Part shown: positions 22,117 through 29,402 of the stretch, piece after piece | Position numbering within the stretch: position 1 is the stretch's first letter | Layout: the number at the start of each line of letters is the position of its first letter | The notes under the pieces: generated by a model | Seen by the model: only the letters and a program-made list of their open reading frames with translations | What the model was told of the DNA's origin: nothing | The model's database searches: none | NCBI GenBank assembly: GCA_948470905.1 | Contig: CAOKQK010000030.1 | Span: 1-37,458 of the forward strand | DNA length: 37,458 nucleotides | Source of the DNA: an uncultured Lachnospiraceae bacterium | GTDB lineage: Bacteria > Bacillota > Clostridia > Lachnospirales > Lachnospiraceae | Reading direction: 5' to 3' | Translations under genes and position numbers: made by a program

Positions 22117-22524
22117 CTATGCCTGATTCAAAAATGCACCCAGGCTCTTATCCTCCGTTGTAATATGTGAAATCAGGACACTGATATGCCCGTTCAGTTT
22201 CCCCAGCTCCGAAATTGTCGGGCCGGATACCGATATACGGGAAGTGATCTCCTTAAGGGTCTGCTTATATTTTTCATGGAACGCCTTATGTGCTGTCATT
22301 CCCGGATAGCCGCTCTGTTTCTGAAGCTGTTCCTCATGTGAAAAATGCTTGTTCACATAGTCATTCAGGAACGTTATTGTCTCATCCATATACGCTCTCC
22401 CTTTGCCCTCGCTGCAGGCTTCCAGAAGTTTGTTCACCGCCTGAAATAATTCCTTATGTTCCTGATCTATGATCGCATTACCTGTTTCCAGTTTCTTTGT
22501 AAACTCATACCGACTCATTGACAT
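22117..22524 (-). CDS. Bacteriohemerythrin
   Basis: A 135-residue four-helix di-iron protein that binds oxygen, for storage, sensing or detoxification in anaerobes. All seven ligands can be placed: His23, His60, Glu64, His79, His83, His120 and Asp125 (motifs DQEHKELF, HFSHEE, AHKAFH, HITTED). The gene overlaps the end of the DUF134-NifX gene. ATG at 22524 has GGAGG very close; the ATG at 22518 has better spacing and overlaps the upstream stop as ATGA, so it may be the real start. Either way translation is likely coupled. Confidence 0.93.
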   Translation of the reverse strand: MSMSRYEFTKKLETGNAIIDQEHKELFQAVNKLLEACSEGKGRAYMDETITFLNDYVNKHFSHEEQLQKQSGYPGMTAHKAFHEKYKQTLKEITSRISVSGPTISELGKLNGHISVLISHITTEDKSLGAFLNQA

Positions 22525-23288
22525 CTGCCTCCATTTCCTTTACAGCCATGTTTATCTTTCCCACAATAATCCCCATTGCCGTGATGATGCCCTTCTCCAT
22601 GATGATCACACCGGACATCCGGGTCAAAAGCAAGCCTCCCCGCAAGCAGGGCATTCACCGCCTCATCCGCACTTCCGGATACCCCGCCATAAAGCTGGAT
22701 CCCCGCTTCCGCCAAGGCCATCTGTGCCCCTGCTCCGATCCCGCCGCAGACAAGTGTATCAACACCAATGGAGGAAAGCATCCCCGCCAAGGCGCCATGC
22801 CCGCTTCCATTCGTGTCCACCACCTGCGTTTCCGTAATTTTCCCGCAGTCAATTCCATAAATCTTGAATTGTTCCGTATGCCCAAAATGCTGGAACACAC
22901 TTCCGTTTTCATAAGCAACCGCAATCTTCATAATACTTACTTCCTTTCTGTTTGAATCCGTCCTGCCACACGGTTTTCCGCAGCATTTCCCCCCAGAGCC
23001 GTCACACAATTTGTAACTGCCGCCGGAAATACACAGCGCCTTTCCGTTTATGATGCAGTCGGCAATTTTAGACCTGGCGCGTTCATATATTTCCGTGACT
23101 GTAGTCCTGGAAACACCCATCTGGACAGCACATTGTCCATGGGTTCTTTTTTCAAGATCTATCAGCCGGACAGCTTCAAATTCATCCACCGTCAAAAAAA
23201 CATTTTCTGTCTTTTTAACCCCGCGGGGAACAAAGCTGTCATACTCAGGCTCTGAACATACCCTTCTGCGCCGAACAGGTCTCGCCAT
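22515..23288 (-). CDS. DUF134 HTH domain fused to a NifX/NifB-like metal-cluster domain
   Basis: Residues 1-90 are a DUF134 DNA-binding domain (MARPVRRRRVCSEPEYDSF..VFLTVDEFEAVRLID, then the helix-turn-helix CAVQMGVSRTTVTEIYERA). A Cys-rich linker follows (CDGSGGKCCGKPCG). Residues 120-225 are a dinitrogenase iron-molybdenum cofactor-type domain (MKIAVAYENGSVFQHFGHTEQFKIY). The tail is His/Cys-rich (HHGEGHHHGNGDYCGK), suggesting metal binding. In many relatives these are two adjacent genes. Here the internal Met120 (ATG at 22931) still has AAGGAAG eight bases upstream, so the NifX domain may also be made alone. A strong promoter with an adjoining palindrome lies upstream. Confidence 0.88.
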   Translation of the reverse strand: MARPVRRRRVCSEPEYDSFVPRGVKKTENVFLTVDEFEAVRLIDLEKRTHGQCAVQMGVSRTTVTEIYERARSKIADCIINGKALCISGGSYKLCDGSGGKCCGKPCGRTDSNRKEVSIMKIAVAYENGSVFQHFGHTEQFKIYGIDCGKITETQVVDTNGSGHGALAGMLSSIGVDTLVCGGIGAGAQMALAEAGIQLYGGVSGSADEAVNALLAGRLAFDPDVRCDHHGEGHHHGNGDYCGKDKHGCKGNGGRCQ

Positions 23289-23351: not shown

Positions 23352-23436
23352 TCACTTATAAACGATAGGAAACGACATGAGCCGTTGCCCTTTGCGCCGC
23401 CTGAGCTGCTGCCTCCCGTCACATGACACTGCAGGC

Positions 23437-23482
23437 AAAACAAGGGCTTCCAGCCATAGACAGGTCCGAAAGCCCTTGTTTT
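23437..23482 (-). terminator. Rho-independent terminator of the ligase operon
   Basis: A perfect 13-bp stem, AAAACAAGGGCTT (23437-23449) with AAGCCCTTGTTTT (23470-23482), and a 20-base loop begins 26 bp after the ligase stop codon. The stem ends in T4 on both strands, so it could also work in the other direction. Confidence 0.8.
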
Positions 23483-23508
23483 CCGTATTTTCAACACATA
23501 AGCTGTGT

Positions 23509-25047
23509 TTAAAACCTCTTGATTTTCTTTGTGGTGTTCTTGTCAAACTCCCTGTCACGCACCTTCAGCTTAAAGATACGTTTATATGGAGGCGCCATCC
23601 TGTTGTACTCATCAATAATGCCCTGAAGTGCGGCGCGCACATCCTTGACCTTCTTTTTGGCCGCATACTCAAGATCCGGAAATATCTCCGCCTCAATGAC
23701 GCCGTCGCTGTCGCGCACCAGGGCCTCCTGCACAAGGCGCGCGGCGCATAGCTTGTTCTCGATCTCCTCAGGGGACACATTCTCCCCGTTGGGCGTGATG
23801 ATCAGGTTCTTTTTGCGTCCGGTGAGAAACAGGAACCCATCCTCGTCCAAATATCCAAGATCCCCCGTCTTCAGCCACCCGTCCTCCAGGGTCTGTGAGG
23901 TCTCCTCCGGCATCTTGTAATAGCCCTGCATTACACTTGTGCCTTTTGCCCAGACCTCCTCATCCACAATCTTGATCTGACAGTTAGGCATTGCCTTACC
24001 CACCGATCCATCCTTCATGGCGCCGTTGCAGTTAGTGCTGATCACAGGCGCGCACTCTGTCATGCCGTAGCCCTGGAGAATGGTAATTCCAAACTTTTTA
24101 AACAGGTTGATGTACGCGGGATTCAAATACGCGCCCCCGCTGCAGATTGTATGAAACTGCTTCCCGAACACCTTCGCCTTCAGGATCGGAGCAGGGATAA
24201 GCGCCGCCTCCTCCAGCTTTTTTGCCAAAGTCTCCACCATCAAAGGCACCATCAAGATCATATTTGGCTCAAAGAGCTTAATGTTGCGGGCAACCCGCAG
24301 AAGGGAATCATTGATACAGATCACCGCCCCCAGGGAAGTCCCTTTCAGGATATCCATGCTGAGACAATATGCATGATGTATGGGAAGCACGCTCATCACC
24401 ACCGTCCCCGGCTCATATCCCATATCCAGCGCTGTGGCATTTTCCGCAAGATTCCTGTGCGTCAGCATGACCCCCTTACTCTTTCCCGTGGTGCCGGAGG
24501 TGAACAGGATCGTCGCCAGATCCTCGGGGGCAGGCTCTCTGCACGCTGCCGCACCGGCACCCGCGATGAGTTCCCAGAGATACGCCGCACCGGACACAGT
24601 ACTTTCCTCCTCCATGGCGATGAAATATTTTATGCCATGGCACCGTTCCTGCGCCATGCGCGCCACATTCTCCTTTGTCCCATCATACACAAGCGTGGTC
24701 ACATCCGCCCTTTCGATCAGCTCACACAGCTCCTCCGCAGGCAGGTTTGCATCCAGAGGGACCGCCACGCTGCCGCCGTTTACAATTCCGTAATATGCCA
24801 CAATCCAGGAGTAGGAGGTAGCTCCCACAATGGCAATATGCTTTCCCTGCTCCCCCAGGCCCTCCAGCGCCGACGTAAAATGTCCGCTGTCACTTTTCAG
24901 CTGAGTATAGGTCTTCGCCTCTATCTTTACGTCTTTTTTCCCGCCCTCATCGGTTCCCTTCACCTTATATCTGATAGCATCCCTGTCCCCGTAGGACTTC
25001 TCCGCCTCTGTAAGCAGCTCATATATGGTACTGCGCAGTCCGCTCAT
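23509..25047 (-). CDS. Acyl-activating AMP ligase (long-chain fatty acid ligase-like)
   Basis: An ANL-superfamily enzyme that adenylates a carboxylic acid and passes it to a thiol, here probably the neighbouring carrier protein. Core motifs are ILFTSGTTGKSKGVMLTHRNL (P-loop type), GYGMTECAPV, KTGDLGYLDEDGFLFLTGRKKN, and the C-terminal Lys in NTTKKIKRF. The frame opens upstream at 25146, but the ATG at 25047 with GGGGAG upstream starts MSGLRSTIYELL as expected and gives 512 residues. It is the last gene of the operon; a strong terminator follows. The long-chain acid preference is inferred from overall similarity, not from pocket residues. Confidence 0.88.
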   Translation of the reverse strand: MSGLRSTIYELLTEAEKSYGDRDAIRYKVKGTDEGGKKDVKIEAKTYTQLKSDSGHFTSALEGLGEQGKHIAIVGATSYSWIVAYYGIVNGGSVAVPLDANLPAEELCELIERADVTTLVYDGTKENVARMAQERCHGIKYFIAMEEESTVSGAAYLWELIAGAGAAACREPAPEDLATILFTSGTTGKSKGVMLTHRNLAENATALDMGYEPGTVVMSVLPIHHAYCLSMDILKGTSLGAVICINDSLLRVARNIKLFEPNMILMVPLMVETLAKKLEEAALIPAPILKAKVFGKQFHTICSGGAYLNPAYINLFKKFGITILQGYGMTECAPVISTNCNGAMKDGSVGKAMPNCQIKIVDEEVWAKGTSVMQGYYKMPEETSQTLEDGWLKTGDLGYLDEDGFLFLTGRKKNLIITPNGENVSPEEIENKLCAARLVQEALVRDSDGVIEAEIFPDLEYAAKKKVKDVRAALQGIIDEYNRMAPPYKRIFKLKVRDREFDKNTTKKIKRF

Positions 25048-25159
25048 GTCTACTCCCCTCTGCGTGCCCTTGCACGCGCTTATTCCCGCGAACAATGCGC
25101 CAAACATGCCTTCACGGACAGTTGGCCAATGCCGCAGGGGTTCCATTTTTCAACAGCTC

Positions 25160-25384
25160 CTAAGAGAGCTTCGAGAGATAATCCGCCGCCTCCTGCACAG
25201 TACGGATATTGGCTGCTTCCTCCTGGTCGATCTCCACGTCCAGCGCCTCCTCAATCTCCCCAAGCATGCTCATAAAATCAAAGGACGTAAATCCCAGGTC
25301 CTCCATAAAACGGGATTCCGGCTTGATATCCTCCCGCTTTACCTCCACATAATTCACAATGATTTCCGTCAGTTTATCAAACAT
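25160..25384 (-). CDS. Acyl (or peptidyl) carrier protein
   Basis: A 74-residue acidic carrier protein. Ser34 in EDLGFTSFDFMSML is the expected 4'-phosphopantetheine attachment site, with TSF in place of the usual DSL. Helices and length fit the family. The ATG at 25384 has GGAGG eight bases upstream. It sits between a free-standing condensation enzyme and an acyl ligase, so it probably shuttles the activated acyl group between them rather than serving primary fatty acid synthesis. Confidence 0.92.
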   Translation of the reverse strand: MFDKLTEIIVNYVEVKREDIKPESRFMEDLGFTSFDFMSMLGEIEEALDVEIDQEEAANIRTVQEAADYLSKLS

Positions 25385-25420
25385 GATCTTTCCTCCAGTC
25401 CCTTTCTCTCCTTATTGTCG

Positions 25421-26824
25421 TCACACCAATTTTATAATATCCCCGATTTTCAGGTTCGGGCACTCCGTTCCCTTGAACATGATCTTACAGATATAGTAAT
25501 AAAAATATTCCAGCTGTTCCTTGCTGTACGCCTTGGTCTGATGCTCAAAACTGAAGTCCAGGCCATTGTCCTCCGGCCTGTGCATGACTGTGAGGTACAT
25601 TCCATCCGAATAATATCCGTTGCCATACCTTTTCGTCTTATAGCGGATATTTCCCAGGTCGGTCAGCCCCTTCTCCCTCAGCGTCGCCGGCTGATAGGTC
25701 AGCGATACGGTCTCATAGCTCAGCCCCTGGGGACAGTGATAATACTCCTTTCGATAGGAGAGGTACTCGGCAGGATTGAAATTTACATACCGGAACACCT
25801 CGTTCTGTTTGTCCCGAATCTCACGGATCCCTTCTAAGAAACTCTTTGTCTCCGGAATGACTGTCCGAAAGGGAAAACAATGGATGCGGGTGCCCCCGGA
25901 CTTTTTTTCCAAAAGCGTTGCCCTGCGGGCATATGCGACCTGCATGGACACATCGTCACATTGATTGATCTTCTGGAGATAGGTACGTATCCCCATGATG
26001 AGCAGGCACTGCAGCGAAATATGCTGCTCCTCGCAGAAATTCATAAGCCTCCTGGTAGGCTCCTCCTCCAGGTGGAAAATATCGATGGCGGCTGCAAAGC
26101 TGTCCGAGCCCGTGGATGCCGCCCTGAGATTTGGATCGCCGGCTGCCTTCCTTGCCTCCTCCAGCTTACCCTTTCCCTCAATTCCGTTGTATATTGGCTC
26201 AGATTCTTCAATCTGCCTATGGAAATATTCCCTGTCCCTGGCCTGCGCCCTGCTTCCCGCCTCATATGCCAGATCCTTCTCCAGCTGCTCCGTGTAGGAA
26301 CGCATGTCGGCGGGATAGGGAACTCCCTCAAAGTTTGCGCTACAGTACAGCTCTATGACATCCTTCAGGAAACAGATCAGGGACTGGGCGTCCAGAAACC
26401 TGTGGTCGCCTGCAAGGTACATGCCCTCAAATCCGTCCGGGGTCTTGATGATGACTACTTTGTTCATGGGCGTATCTTCCCCGTCAAAGGGAATCCTCGT
26501 CCAGGCTGTCATCTCGGCTTCCGCCTCCTCCATGGACTTTCCCGTGAAATCCATGAATTCAATCTCCCGGTCCTCCTTATCGGCAATATACTGATACCAC
26601 TGATCCTCCTTACTGTCATACGCAAGCCGCGCACGCATGGATTCACAGCGCTCGTATGCCTTGTAGATTGCCTTTCTCAGCTCCTCTACATCCAATTCAA
26701 ACTCTATGGTAAGGCTCGTGCCAACATTCAAAATTTCCTTTCCCGGACTGTACTGTGCATAGTAATTGTGGAATTTCTGCGCCACCGTCAGCGGGTAGGT
26801 TTTATGGCCCTTCCTCGTTTTCAT
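25421..26824 (-). CDS. Free-standing NRPS-type condensation domain protein
   Basis: The 467 residues fit one condensation (C) domain of non-ribosomal peptide synthetases, with no adenylation or carrier domain attached. The catalytic HHxxxDG motif appears as D140-H-R-F-L-D-A146: the second His (the catalytic one, His141) and the Asp are kept, while the first His is Asp and the Gly is Ala. Such enzymes join an acyl group on a carrier protein to an amine or alcohol. The ATG at 26824 overlaps the hydrolase stop (ATGA), so the two are translationally coupled. The ACP gene follows 36 bp downstream. Confidence 0.82.
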   Translation of the reverse strand: MKTRKGHKTYPLTVAQKFHNYYAQYSPGKEILNVGTSLTIEFELDVEELRKAIYKAYERCESMRARLAYDSKEDQWYQYIADKEDREIEFMDFTGKSMEEAEAEMTAWTRIPFDGEDTPMNKVVIIKTPDGFEGMYLAGDHRFLDAQSLICFLKDVIELYCSANFEGVPYPADMRSYTEQLEKDLAYEAGSRAQARDREYFHRQIEESEPIYNGIEGKGKLEEARKAAGDPNLRAASTGSDSFAAAIDIFHLEEEPTRRLMNFCEEQHISLQCLLIMGIRTYLQKINQCDDVSMQVAYARRATLLEKKSGGTRIHCFPFRTVIPETKSFLEGIREIRDKQNEVFRYVNFNPAEYLSYRKEYYHCPQGLSYETVSLTYQPATLREKGLTDLGNIRYKTKRYGNGYYSDGMYLTVMHRPEDNGLDFSFEHQTKAYSKEQLEYFYYYICKIMFKGTECPNLKIGDIIKLV

Positions 26825-27774
26825 ATTCCTATTCTCCTCTCAAATTCCGTCAGTGCGTTCTCGTAAGCCTCCATGTCCTTGTAATAGCTCTCCGCATGGC
26901 CCGCTCCCTCCACGATCAGCTCCTGTTTGGGCGAACGGCAGCTCTCATATATCTCATGACACATACTGCAGGGGACAAAGGTATCCGCCGAACCGTGAAT
27001 GAAAAGAATGGGAACCTTCGCCTTTTTTACCTCCCGCCTGGCATTGCATTCATCCATCCCATATCCTGCCAGCCTTTTGTTGAGGAAATCGGCTCCCTGG
27101 ATCGCCGGGAACGCCGGCAGGTGATACATTTTGTTCAGCACATGGGTGAACACCTCCTTTGGCGACGTAAAGGCACAGTCGGAAACAATTCCCTTTACAT
27201 TTGCAGGAAGCTCCAGGCCGCTTGTCATCAGAACAGTCGCCCCTCCCATGGATGTGCCATGGAGCAGGATTCCCACATCTTCCCCACACTCCTGTATGGC
27301 CCAGTTGATCCACCCGAGGGCGTCCTTTCTGTCCAGGCACCCGAATCCAATATACTCTCCCTCACTTCCGCCGTGGGCCCTGGCATCCGGAAGCAGCATG
27401 GCATAACCCCTTTTCAGAAAATACCGGGCGATCGCCACATGATTGCTCAGCCCTTCTCCCGTGTAGCCGTGAAAACAGATCACAATCCTGTTTCTCTCTC
27501 CTATGGTCCTGTCCGCCGGAAAGTATGTGGCGTGAAGCTTTAACCCATCAAAGGACGAAAGATATACATCCTGGTGAGGTTTTGCCATCACAAATTTCTT
27601 TCTCTCCTCCATAAGCGGATAATACTTTTCCCAGTCGGTGCCTGACATCTTCACAGTCCGGTCCGTCCTGGCATTCCCCCGTTTCATGGTACGATTATAA
27701 AAGTATACTGTCTCCCCTATTCCCGCCGTTGCCAGCGCTCCCGCTGCCAGCACAATCTTTTTCAAAACACCCAT
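26821..27774 (-). CDS. Alpha/beta hydrolase, membrane-anchored
   Basis: A 317-residue serine hydrolase of the alpha/beta fold. The nucleophile elbow is GTSMGG (Ser175), the acid is Asp264 (GSADTFVP) and the base is His293 (GAGHAES); the oxyanion motif is CFHGYTGEG. An N-terminal hydrophobic stretch (KIVLAAGALATAGIGETVYFY) suggests a signal anchor. It may act as a thioesterase, esterase or amidase on the operon's lipid product. It begins 3 bp after a small repeat ORF and overlaps the condensation gene by four bases. Confidence 0.88.
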   Translation of the reverse strand: MGVLKKIVLAAGALATAGIGETVYFYNRTMKRGNARTDRTVKMSGTDWEKYYPLMEERKKFVMAKPHQDVYLSSFDGLKLHATYFPADRTIGERNRIVICFHGYTGEGLSNHVAIARYFLKRGYAMLLPDARAHGGSEGEYIGFGCLDRKDALGWINWAIQECGEDVGILLHGTSMGGATVLMTSGLELPANVKGIVSDCAFTSPKEVFTHVLNKMYHLPAFPAIQGADFLNKRLAGYGMDECNARREVKKAKVPILFIHGSADTFVPCSMCHEIYESCRSPKQELIVEGAGHAESYYKDMEAYENALTEFERRIGI

Positions 27775-27777
27775 TTT

Positions 27778-27942
27778 TCATTCTTCCTTTTCCAGCCTGT
27801 TATCTATAATTAAAGTCATCTGCAATTCTGCTGCCTGCACTTCCGGCATATGCATTTCTGCCGTCTGCACTTTCGGCATATGCATTTCTGCTGTCTGTAC
27901 TTCTGGCATCCGCATTTCTGCTGCCTGCCCTGTCAGATTCAT
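27778..27942 (-). CDS. Small coupled ORF made of a 10-residue repeat
   Basis: Its ATG (27942-27940) overlaps the stop of the SCP2-like gene as ATGA, and its TGA ends 3 bp before the hydrolase ATG. It encodes 54 residues. The core is a decapeptide repeat (AEMHMPKVQT and variants) copied from a 30-bp tandem repeat, and the tail is TLIIDNRLEKEE. Position and frame fit a translated coupling ORF, but I recognise no family and it has no own ribosome binding site. It may serve only to carry ribosomes between the flanking genes. Confidence 0.45.
   Translation of the reverse strand: MNLTGQAAEMRMPEVQTAEMHMPKVQTAEMHMPEVQAAELQMTLIIDNRLEKEE
27821..27940. repeat. 30-bp tandem repeat, about four copies
   Basis: Units at 27821-27850, 27851-27880, 27881-27910 and a decayed copy at 27911-27940 follow the plus-strand pattern TGCATTTCTGCYGYCTGCAC then TTYCGGCATA. 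The period of exactly 30 bp keeps a minus-strand frame open. There are no spacers. Confidence 0.85.
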
Positions 27943-28376
27943 TTGTCCAGATTCTTCGATGCCTTCTTTGCCGCTGTCCTGGCTATGGTTCCCACTACCT
28001 TATCCATTGTCTTCTTTGCCGCGCTCTTCGACTTTTGGGCAGCGTCTCTTTTCATCTCCACAATATCCTTGAGCCGAAGGGCCTTATCAAGGTTTCCCTC
28101 CACCCTAAGCCTTCCGTCCATAAACGCGCCCACAGGATCCAGCTCCCCGTCCGCAATCTTTAACAACACATCCGGCGCACAGATAAAGATCGCATCCCTG
28201 TCATAATACTCATAGGGCTCCACAAAGAGAGCGCCGTCCTTGACCTCCACATAGAAAGCGCCGCCAGCCTCCTGATCCTCAATATTGAACTGAAAAGCGA
28301 GATGCTCCCTGATATCGCTCACATCAGTTCCCATAAATTTCCCCTTAATCTCATAAAAAAAATCTGCGTATGTCAT
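27939..28376 (-). CDS. SCP2 sterol-transfer-domain protein
   Basis: A 145-residue protein with an SCP2-like lipid-binding fold (TYADFFYEIKGKF near the N-terminus, then AFYVEVKDGALFVEPYEYYDRDAIFICAPDVLLKIADGELDPVGAFMDGRLRVEGN in pieces). The Lys/Ala-rich tail is basic and probably helical. SCP2 domains bind fatty acyl and other lipid chains, fitting its place as first gene of a lipid-handling operon. The frame extends upstream to 28517, but the ATG at 28376 with GGGAGGTGGAG just before it is clearly better. It is preceded by the operator-flanked promoter. Confidence 0.82.
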   Translation of the reverse strand: MTYADFFYEIKGKFMGTDVSDIREHLAFQFNIEDQEAGGAFYVEVKDGALFVEPYEYYDRDAIFICAPDVLLKIADGELDPVGAFMDGRLRVEGNLDKALRLKDIVEMKRDAAQKSKSAAKKTMDKVVGTIARTAAKKASKNLDK

Positions 28377-28540
28377 TTCTCCACCTCCCTGCCCGCTTTT
28401 GCGGACATTCATTGACTGTTTGGACATTTCCTTCCCAAGGCTCCACCCTCCAGCACCTGTCTGTGGGACGCATTTTTTATGCTTTGACTGCTCCCTCTTT
28501 GTCCCACACTCCGGCACTGATTTCTGTGTCTTGCATTTTC

Positions 28541-28551
28541 GACCATTGGTC
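28541..28551. promoter_or_regulatory. TetR-type operator, copy 1
   Basis: GACCATTGGTC is symmetric around its central base and extends to the 13-bp CGACCATTGGTCG (28540-28552). It lies about 10-20 bases downstream of the predicted transcription start of the leftward operon. Confidence 0.75.
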
Positions 28552-28567
28552 GATTCCTTTATAGATA

Positions 28568-28597
28568 TTTATAACATATTTTTCGACCATTGGTCAA
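28568..28597 (-). promoter_or_regulatory. Promoter of the SCP2-hydrolase-condensation-ACP-ligase operon
   Basis: On the minus strand TTGACC (28597-28592) is followed after 17-18 bp by TTATAA or TATAAA (28574-28568). The -35 box overlaps operator copy 2, and operator copy 1 lies just beyond the start site. The leader to the SCP2-like ATG is about 185 nt and I see no known riboswitch in it. Confidence 0.7.
28585..28595. promoter_or_regulatory. TetR-type operator, copy 2
   Basis: A second exact GACCATTGGTC, centred 44 bp from copy 1 (about four helical turns, same DNA face). It overlaps the -35 element of the leftward promoter and lies about 175 bp upstream of the divergent TetR gene. Confidence 0.75.
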
Positions 28598-28769
28598 CAT
28601 TATTTTTCACAAATTAGCGAGAAAAACCGCACAAATTTTGAGTACTATTACTAATTGTTTGAAAAACCCCTTTGTGTTATTCTGATTCTGAAACATAAAA
28701 TGTGCCAATCAGTTAAAACCAATTCAAAAAGTTGAAATAAACCAAAACAATACTGAAATGAGGACACCC

Positions 28770-29402
28770 ATGCCGGATACAAAAAAATATGACAGAATCC
28801 TGGACGCCCTTCAAATGCTTCTGAAGGACAGCTCCATACAAAATATTTCCGTGAGTGATATTGCCAAAAAGGCTGAGATTGGAAAAGGCAGTATTTACTA
28901 CTACTTTCCCTCCAAAGAAGCGATTCTCGACGCTCTGATAAAAAGAAGCTATGAAGCACCCCTCAAGACTGCAAGCAGCCTTGCGTCAAAAACAGAAATT
29001 TCTCCGTTTACACGCATGGCTATGATCCTGCAGGCGTGCCGCAGTTCCTCCGCCGCGTTTTTAAGCCATGACAACACTTCCCCCGGCACAGACAGCAGCG
29101 CGCAGGATCTTGCGTATCTGCACCAGAAATACATGAACCACCTGATATCCGAACTGAAACCGGTTTTGACGGAAATCATAAAACAGGGGATTTCTTCCGG
29201 AGATATTCACTTTGAATATCCGGCTGCGCTTGCCGAAATCGTACTTATCGTACTTGCCGTCAAGCTCAACAACACTTTTTTGTCCGCCACCGCAGAAGAT
29301 TCAGAGGATACTATCCGGGGGCTTGTATCCCTCCTGGAAAAAGGGACCGGCATTCCTCAGGGCTCCATCAATTACCTGACCATGTCTGAAGATTCCCTAT
29401 AG
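28770..29402 (+). CDS. TetR-family transcriptional regulator
   Basis: The N-terminal 50 residues form the TetR helix-turn-helix (YDRILDALQMLL, then NISVSDIAKKAEIGKGSIYYYFPSKEAILDAL). The remaining ~150 residues are the helical ligand and dimer domain. An ATG at 28758 exists, but the ATG at 28770 has GAGGA six bases upstream and starts MPDTKKYDRIL. The gene is divergent from the lipid/NRPS-like operon, and the shared 393-bp region holds two identical operators, so it most likely represses that operon and releases on binding a lipid-like ligand. Its own promoter is not clear. Confidence 0.9.
   Translation: MPDTKKYDRILDALQMLLKDSSIQNISVSDIAKKAEIGKGSIYYYFPSKEAILDALIKRSYEAPLKTASSLASKTEISPFTRMAMILQACRSSSAAFLSHDNTSPGTDSSAQDLAYLHQKYMNHLISELKPVLTEIIKQGISSGDIHFEYPAALAEIVLIVLAVKLNNTFLSATAEDSEDTIRGLVSLLEKGTGIPQGSINYLTMSEDSL

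Follow-up and report, generated by a model that had tools for sequence, protein, structure and literature searches.

Gene content and layout of the locus

The window (i.e., the whole 37,458-nt stretch of contig CAOKQK010000030.1, from an uncultured Lachnospiraceae bacterium) carries, between positions 23437 and 29402, a predicted inducible operon for fatty-acid amide (FAA) synthesis. On the minus strand, the gene order is SCP2, hydrolase, condensation enzyme (C), acyl carrier protein (ACP), and ligase, with a divergent tetR gene on the plus strand. These genes had all been named in an initial annotation of this DNA, and Pfam matches and coordinates confirmed each of them, including Ser34 of the ACP and His141 of C.

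The first gene (27939 to 28376, minus strand) encodes an SCP2-fold lipid carrier of 145 amino acids (aa), for which the ATG at 28376 is the most likely start; all 19 SCP2 sequences in alignment A3 begin with MTY (starts picked by script). Its SCP2 domain scored 52.8 bits against a curated cut-off of 21.3 (PF02036, 5.4e-14, scored on a longer frame), and solved SCP2 structures were matched as well. The lysine/alanine-rich tail (27942 to 28043) is variable, as 58 of 123 relatives are at most 120 aa and 39 at least 135 aa long, and it may bind the membrane. The second gene (26821 to 27774, minus strand) encodes a predicted membrane-anchored alpha/beta hydrolase of 317 aa (PF12146, 9.1e-15) and overlaps the C gene by 4 bp. 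The gap between SCP2 and hydrolase genes is 164 bp in the window, -8 to 133 bp in 121 of 123 relatives, and 247 bp in two relatives' records, apparently of one genome. At 27817 to 27928 lie 3.7 copies of a 30-bp tandem repeat, which reads in frame as a repetitive peptide and is absent as a conserved feature among relatives. This repeat was the source of a small open reading frame that the initial annotation had counted as an operon member, and we rule it out as a gene.

The free-standing condensation enzyme (25421 to 26824, minus strand; 467 aa; PF00668, 5.4e-33) is followed by the ACP (25160 to 25384, minus strand; 74 aa; PF00550, 1.5e-11), whose Ser34 stands in LGFTSFD, and by an AMP-binding acyl-ACP ligase with the motif TSGTTGKSKG (23509 to 25047, minus strand; PF00501, 1.8e-63). 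The ligase frame is open as far as 25146, and we consider 25047 (512 aa) its most likely start; among relatives, a length of 512 aa was commonest (34 loci), followed by 502 aa (22 loci). The operon ends at an intrinsic terminator (23437 to 23482, minus strand; AAAACAAGGGCTT ... AAGCCCTTGTTTT), a call of the initial annotation that is borne out by the strong RNA fold of the surrounding sequence (23420 to 23512; -37.9 kcal/mol, z -5.2).

Condensation enzyme family and conservation of the gene set

The best solved match of the window's C protein was 12kh_A (E 1.3e-106, 360 bits, aligned residues 7 to 466), and the next solved chain reached 30 bits, so that C lies nearer to this enzyme than to the C domains of modular nonribosomal peptide synthetases (NRPS). 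According to the available text of PMC13142362, 12KH is OaaC of Coprococcus eutactus, which couples ACP-bound fatty acids to free amines in vitro; it forms amides from acyl-ACP with aminovaleric acid or gamma-aminobutyric acid (GABA), and none from oleoyl-coenzyme A (CoA). This match to a family with demonstrated acyl transfer to amines upholds the proposal of the initial annotation that ligase, ACP, and C form an FAA pathway, and by analogy with these homologues the core chemistry is likely N-acyl amide synthesis.

The likeness to OaaA/OaaACP/OaaC, the oleoyl aminovaleric acid system of C. eutactus, extends to the separate adenylating ligase, ACP, and C enzyme, encoded side by side in the window as in FAA NRPS-like clusters, to the DHxxxD motif, and to an end-to-end C alignment. 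The window's C protein differs from OaaC in sequence (39% identity in alignment A1 of 13 sequences, with His141 and Asp145 invariant), in clade, and in the last motif residue (Ala versus Ser in OaaC). Starter condensation domains of lipopeptide synthetases share the PF00668 fold and a fatty-acyl donor (available text of PMC13142362); unlike them, the window's C is free-standing, and its operon encodes one ACP but lacks an acceptor carrier.

More specifically, GDHRFLDA, which contains His141 and Asp145 of C, matches the CFAA motif (D/H)HxxxD followed by Ala, and the available text of PMC13142362 gives the last place of this motif as Ser (42%), Ala (36%), or Gly (17%). In a tree of 59 proteins, the window's C fell within a group of 39 (clade I; support 99/95), and OaaC stood on the other side together with 17 of 19 rows pre-labelled clade II; L083 and L085 formed long branches. 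All 130 clade I loci in which the motif was found (1 of 131 lacked it) had Ala as its last residue, and 17 of the 19 loci on the OaaC side had Ser. The 131 clade I loci, which represent 123 distinct C proteins, are redundant because some genomes were fetched twice.

The acceptor amine is not readable from the sequence, which leaves room for C transferring the acyl group to an amino acid, an alcohol, or a membrane amine and thus producing a lipoamino acid or an ester instead of a neurotransmitter-type amide. The Arg that follows the catalytic His (26387 to 26407; DHRFLDA) is shared with OaaC (DHRLMDS), whose tested acceptors bear a carboxylate; it occurs in 4 of 38 sampled clade I loci and in 51 of 130 of the redundant set, where Met or Leu takes its place in 73, and is perhaps a marker of amine preference. 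The enzymes are described as amine-selective, excluding proteogenic and nonproteogenic amino acids (available text of PMC13142362), and we consider a lipoamino acid or ester product improbable.

To define how widely the gene set is shared, we used a family sample of 397 genomes, of which 39 (the window's own included) were counted as clade I, and a scan of named genomes, which gave at least 528 relatives; the best 80 of these served for the gene-order counts and are referred to as named loci. C matches at E 0.001 or better occurred in 78 of the 397 family genomes, and many weaker ones fell in very long frames of the kind seen in ordinary NRPS. Of 101 genomes of the window's genus, 14 matched C, 11 of them (own included) at 63% identity or more. 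Among the named loci, the hydrolase was present in 80/80 and, wherever the contig reached, SCP2 in 77/77 (3 cut by contig ends), the ACP in 78/78 (2 cut), and the ligase in 77/77 (3 cut); a divergent TetR was found in 63/73 (7 more cut). Likewise, with the window set aside, the 38 clade I loci of the family sample contained 38 hydrolase, 36 SCP2, and 32 TetR matches (two of the latter partial). The hosts of the named relatives were mostly titled Lachnospiraceae, some with a gut source in the title, in keeping with gut Clostridia; they include Claveliimonas bilis, Lachnospiraceae bacterium A4, and Schaedlerella arabinosiphila, in the last of which no TetR match adjoined the operon. By profile search, SCP2 was found at 0/19 loci of the OaaC side, and the hydrolase strongly at 7/19 (5 of these 7 were profile members) and weakly at one more; at 3/19, neither an ACP nor a ligase was matched in the vicinity of the C gene.

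The order and direction of the SCP2 and hydrolase genes were fixed in 77/77 and 80/80 named loci. This bears on the possibility that both are chance neighbours of the FAA genes, to which the 15 sample genomes carrying an SCP2 gene without a clade I C gene lend some colour. Given the fixed arrangement, and the 36/38 and 38/38 occurrences in the family sample, we regard chance proximity as scarcely credible, and for the hydrolase it is close to refuted. Two findings had been named beforehand as capable of overturning the FAA reading, i.e., genes scattered without co-occurrence and a C protein aligning to a family that lacks acyltransfer; the counts above and the near full-length alignment to OaaC show that neither appeared, and the FAA reading is therefore supported. 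The further suggestion that SCP2 and hydrolase would be the novel part is limited by their not being peculiar to this genome and by an SCP2-condensation pair that appears in the available text of PMC13029680. OaaA/OaaACP/OaaC are described as three proteins, and the main text of PMC13142362 mentions neither SCP2 nor hydrolase.

Contig G518:C1 of genome G518 contains a single C match and carries TetR, SCP2, hydrolase, C, ACP, and ligase in the window's order. Its C protein is 62% identical to that of the window, with the motif HHMVVDA versus DHRFLDA. Its tetR matches (L216, 6675 to 7509) lie in two reading frames, as with a frameshift, so that this operon may be less tightly controlled or the assembly may be in error. 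We tentatively take G518 to be Eubacterium rectale ATCC 33656. The available text of PMC11561910 gives E. rectale DSM 17629 as a maker of lauroyl tryptamine, and the E. rectale lauroyl tryptamine system that Chang et al. reportedly described in 2021 may already show SCP2 and hydrolase. If G518 is E. rectale and if the report of its product holds, a proven FAA producer would belong to clade I.

As to a phage origin, neither C nor SCP2 had any PHROGs match. Outside the operon, 22515 to 23288 is a single open frame that fuses a DUF134 domain to a dinitrogenase iron-molybdenum cofactor domain, and it overlaps a bacteriohemerythrin gene at 22117 to 22524.

Divergent TetR, candidate operators, and SCP2 genes outside the operon

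The divergent TetR-family regulator (28758 to 29402, plus strand; 214 aa; PF00440, 5.2e-13; PF21303) has Bacillus FadR as its nearest named model, with a score far below the cut-off, and a solved FadR-type relative matches as well. The Bacillus FadR operator differs from the palindrome found here. In the interval between tetR and SCP2, a 15-bp palindrome occurs twice, in one case with a mismatch at one position, against an expectation of 0.05 from shuffles of the window. Candidate operator 1 (TTGACCAATGGTCGA; 28583 to 28597) contains the -35 box, and candidate operator 2 (TCGACCAATGGTCGA; 28539 to 28553), about 44 bp from operator 1, follows the -10 box. The promoter between them (28568 to 28597, minus strand) has a -35 box TTGACC (28597 to 28592), an 18-nt spacer, and an extended -10 box (TGTTATAAA; TATAAA, 28573 to 28568). 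It was absent from a plain consensus scan of the window and becomes visible by comparison with relatives, in which the arrangement is retained; the promoter called clear in the initial annotation thus stands, on comparative grounds.

We surveyed 102 TetR-SCP2 regions, i.e., the window and 101 of the 131 clade I loci (27 dropped for want of a TetR match and 3 for gap length). GACY-N3-RGTC sites numbered two in 93 of these regions, one in 8, and none in 1 (87, 8, and 1, respectively, among the 96 distinct regions), and the two sites were 43 to 45 bp apart in 92 of the 93 paired regions and 54 bp apart in one; single-base shuffles gave a mean of 0.68 of 102 regions with a site. A search of 16 genomes with the paired pattern returned 14 sites in 13 genomes, 13 of them just upstream of SCP2 (one per genome) and the remaining one elsewhere, in G497, and a reversed-pattern control returned zero sites. 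In 20 additional genomes, of which 12 belong to the genus and 8 to other families, the paired pattern occurred once, in another family. Regulation of the operon by TetR is likely on this comparative evidence, and a regulator dedicated to a single operon fits best. Paired sites also lie upstream of SCP2 at L130, L131, L150, and L182, where no adjacent TetR match was found; the regulator may have moved or diverged there.

SCP2 genes are not exclusive to the operon, as shown by the 15 sample genomes mentioned above (at least 50% identity over at least 80 residues, a threshold judged by eye); G039 has a 51-residue SCP2 match. At 20 SCP2 loci chosen outside the operon, BLAST of open frames of at least 80 aa revealed only two neighbours recurring at more than 3 loci, namely, TetR (5/20; 43 to 64% identity and divergent from SCP2) and a chemoreceptor-like protein (4/20). 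Three of the SCP2-TetR loci (L231, L233, and L241) keep paired operators; at the other two, both from one genus, a single site lies near SCP2 in each. L231 (6451 to 7581) retains TetR, SCP2, and the paired operators, and immediately downstream of SCP2 the ligase is represented by three separate pieces; no C, ACP, or hydrolase was found at this locus, which we read as a decayed FAA operon whose SCP2 and regulator would have survived.

A lipid signal may also be reflected in work on Blautia hominis HA2291, for which the available text of PMC13029680 lists the SCP2-like gene RS03310 among 29 genes raised by cholesterol. As reported there, the RS03310 protein binds cholesterol (dissociation constant [Kd] about 0.56 mg/mL), shows slow activity that depends on NAD, and has the nearby condensation-domain protein RS03300 as a predicted partner. 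Among the matches listed in our literature search, this is the only source linking SCP2 to a condensation protein. The two genes are two locus numbers apart, which fits the SCP2-hydrolase-C order of the window. The RS03310 pocket residues 10, 21, 22, 28, 30, and 63 are identical, position for position, in the clade I SCP2 proteins of L051 and L055, and the six named residues at 101 to 109 mostly differ; the window's SCP2 shares three of the twelve, and the C-terminal ones do not fit. From these locus numbers and residue positions, we think that the Blautia locus is probably the same operon viewed from its SCP2 side, and the cholesterol response of RS03310 would then be a first hint that lipid raises its expression.

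Taken at face value, the Blautia data (cholesterol binding, induction, NAD-dependent activity, and the RS03300 association, together with the six identical residues between 10 and 63) point to a sterol-handling pathway, in which SCP2 would bind and oxidise cholesterol and the condensation protein and hydrolase would modify sterols. We consider this very improbable, as the ligase, ACP, and HxxxD-type C constitute acyl-transfer machinery matching OaaC, and the reported cholesterol binding is weak. A more serious contender, which we still hold to be less than even in likelihood, is that the operon mainly protects against toxic fatty acids or lipids: TetR would sense them, SCP2 would buffer them, and the amide would be a form of disposal, with host signalling as a by-product. 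A regulator, a lipid carrier, and a hydrolase suit a lipid stress response; the SCP2-TetR pair and its operators persist where the enzymes have been lost, with ligase pieces beside the pair at L231; and the Blautia gene, if of the same family, rises under cholesterol. Against this, 15 of the 20 SCP2 loci outside the operon had no TetR match, and protection is in any case compatible with amide synthesis.

Roles of the hydrolase and SCP2 in the proposed pathway

The hydrolase scored 55 bits against a cut-off of 27 for Hydrolase_4, as expected of a serine alpha/beta hydrolase, and its triad (S175, D264, H293) is invariant in alignments A2 (18 sequences) and A5 (30 sequences). Among the matches listed, hydrolases of at least 48% identity were confined to the 39 clade I genomes, the best elsewhere being 45%; the 48% line was judged by eye, after the gap had become visible. 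The N-terminus is hydrophobic. In 118 distinct hydrolases (sequences shorter than 300 aa or containing X excluded), net positive charge was higher in the 20 residues after the hydrophobic stretch than in the part before it in 97, equal in 13, and lower in 8, and the cysteine count had a median of 8 (range 5 to 11). By the positive-inside rule, and with cysteine being rare outside Gram-positive cells, this charge bias and cysteine content mean that the predicted hydrolase most likely faces the cytoplasm, which weakens a role in extracellular digestion of dietary lipids; supply, editing, or turnover remain.

Editing is the role proposed if the hydrolase is a thioesterase that cleans mis-loaded ACP, like the type II thioesterases beside peptide synthetases. 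The invariant triad suits this, and its presence in all 39 of the clade I genomes sampled ties the hydrolase to a carrier-protein pathway. Its 10 Pfam rows include no thioesterase family, its solved relatives include esterases and monoglyceride lipases, and the N-terminal anchor suggests a membrane substrate; on balance, we find an editing thioesterase unlikely.

The mechanism that we favour, and that we judge quite probable as a whole from the sequence comparisons, is as follows. The ligase would adenylate a free fatty acid and load it onto the dedicated ACP, and C, by the chemistry of a homologue, would use a small, freely diffusing amine as acceptor for the acyl group, so that an N-acyl amide is released. 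TetR would sit on the two palindromes around the promoter and repress the operon until released by a ligand, which is probably the amide or a lipid such as a fatty acid or its CoA ester. SCP2 may buffer or carry the fatty acid or the product in the cell. The membrane hydrolase, in our first preference, would supply the ligase with fatty acid cleaved from a lipid ester; alternatively, it may clear stalled acyl-ACP or surplus amide. For an in-cell source of the amine, the window's own genome (about 90% complete) gave no match to the decarboxylase family PF00282, other decarboxylase families not having been searched.

Several observations weigh against this mechanism. Identity to OaaC is only 39%, across distinct clades, and the link to lauroyl tryptamine depends on our tentative identification of G518 as E. 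rectale. The hydrolase family is broad (131 of 397 genomes at E 1e-40), and SCP2 is found in genomes without the other operon genes. TetR was not found in 10 of the 73 named loci; six of these ten have no operator sites, and four keep two upstream of SCP2. As for FadR, the regulator scored 39.9 bits against an NCBIfam cut-off of 200. Finally, in the available text of PMC13029680, an SCP2 protein with a condensation protein nearby is interpreted as an enzyme that converts cholesterol.

The core pathway is already known. More surprising are its dedicated switch, the invariable presence of the hydrolase, and the persistence of an SCP2-TetR pair after loss of the enzymes. Tentatively, and with its parts taken jointly, we put forward that clade I might be a self-contained lipid-responsive device, in which TetR and its paired operator would start FAA synthesis on encountering lipid, SCP2 would feed the ligase or lift the amide off C, and the membrane hydrolase would set the level of free acid or amide. 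SCP2-TetR might then be the original lipid-sensing pair, kept after the chemistry was lost, and the published cholesterol effects on SCP2 genes might be a side view of the switch. Neither the operon's regulatory anatomy nor an inducing signal for FAA genes was met in the literature sections covered.

The hydrolase gene is no less constant than those of the catalytic enzymes, so the published scheme of ligase, ACP, and C may be missing one component in clade I. A dedicated regulator with a paired operator across many genera makes induction by diet fat, sterol, or amine directly testable. Bacterial FAAs act on human receptors (available text of PMC13142362), and, judged from its genes, the operon very probably yields hormone-like lipids from fatty acids and small amines.

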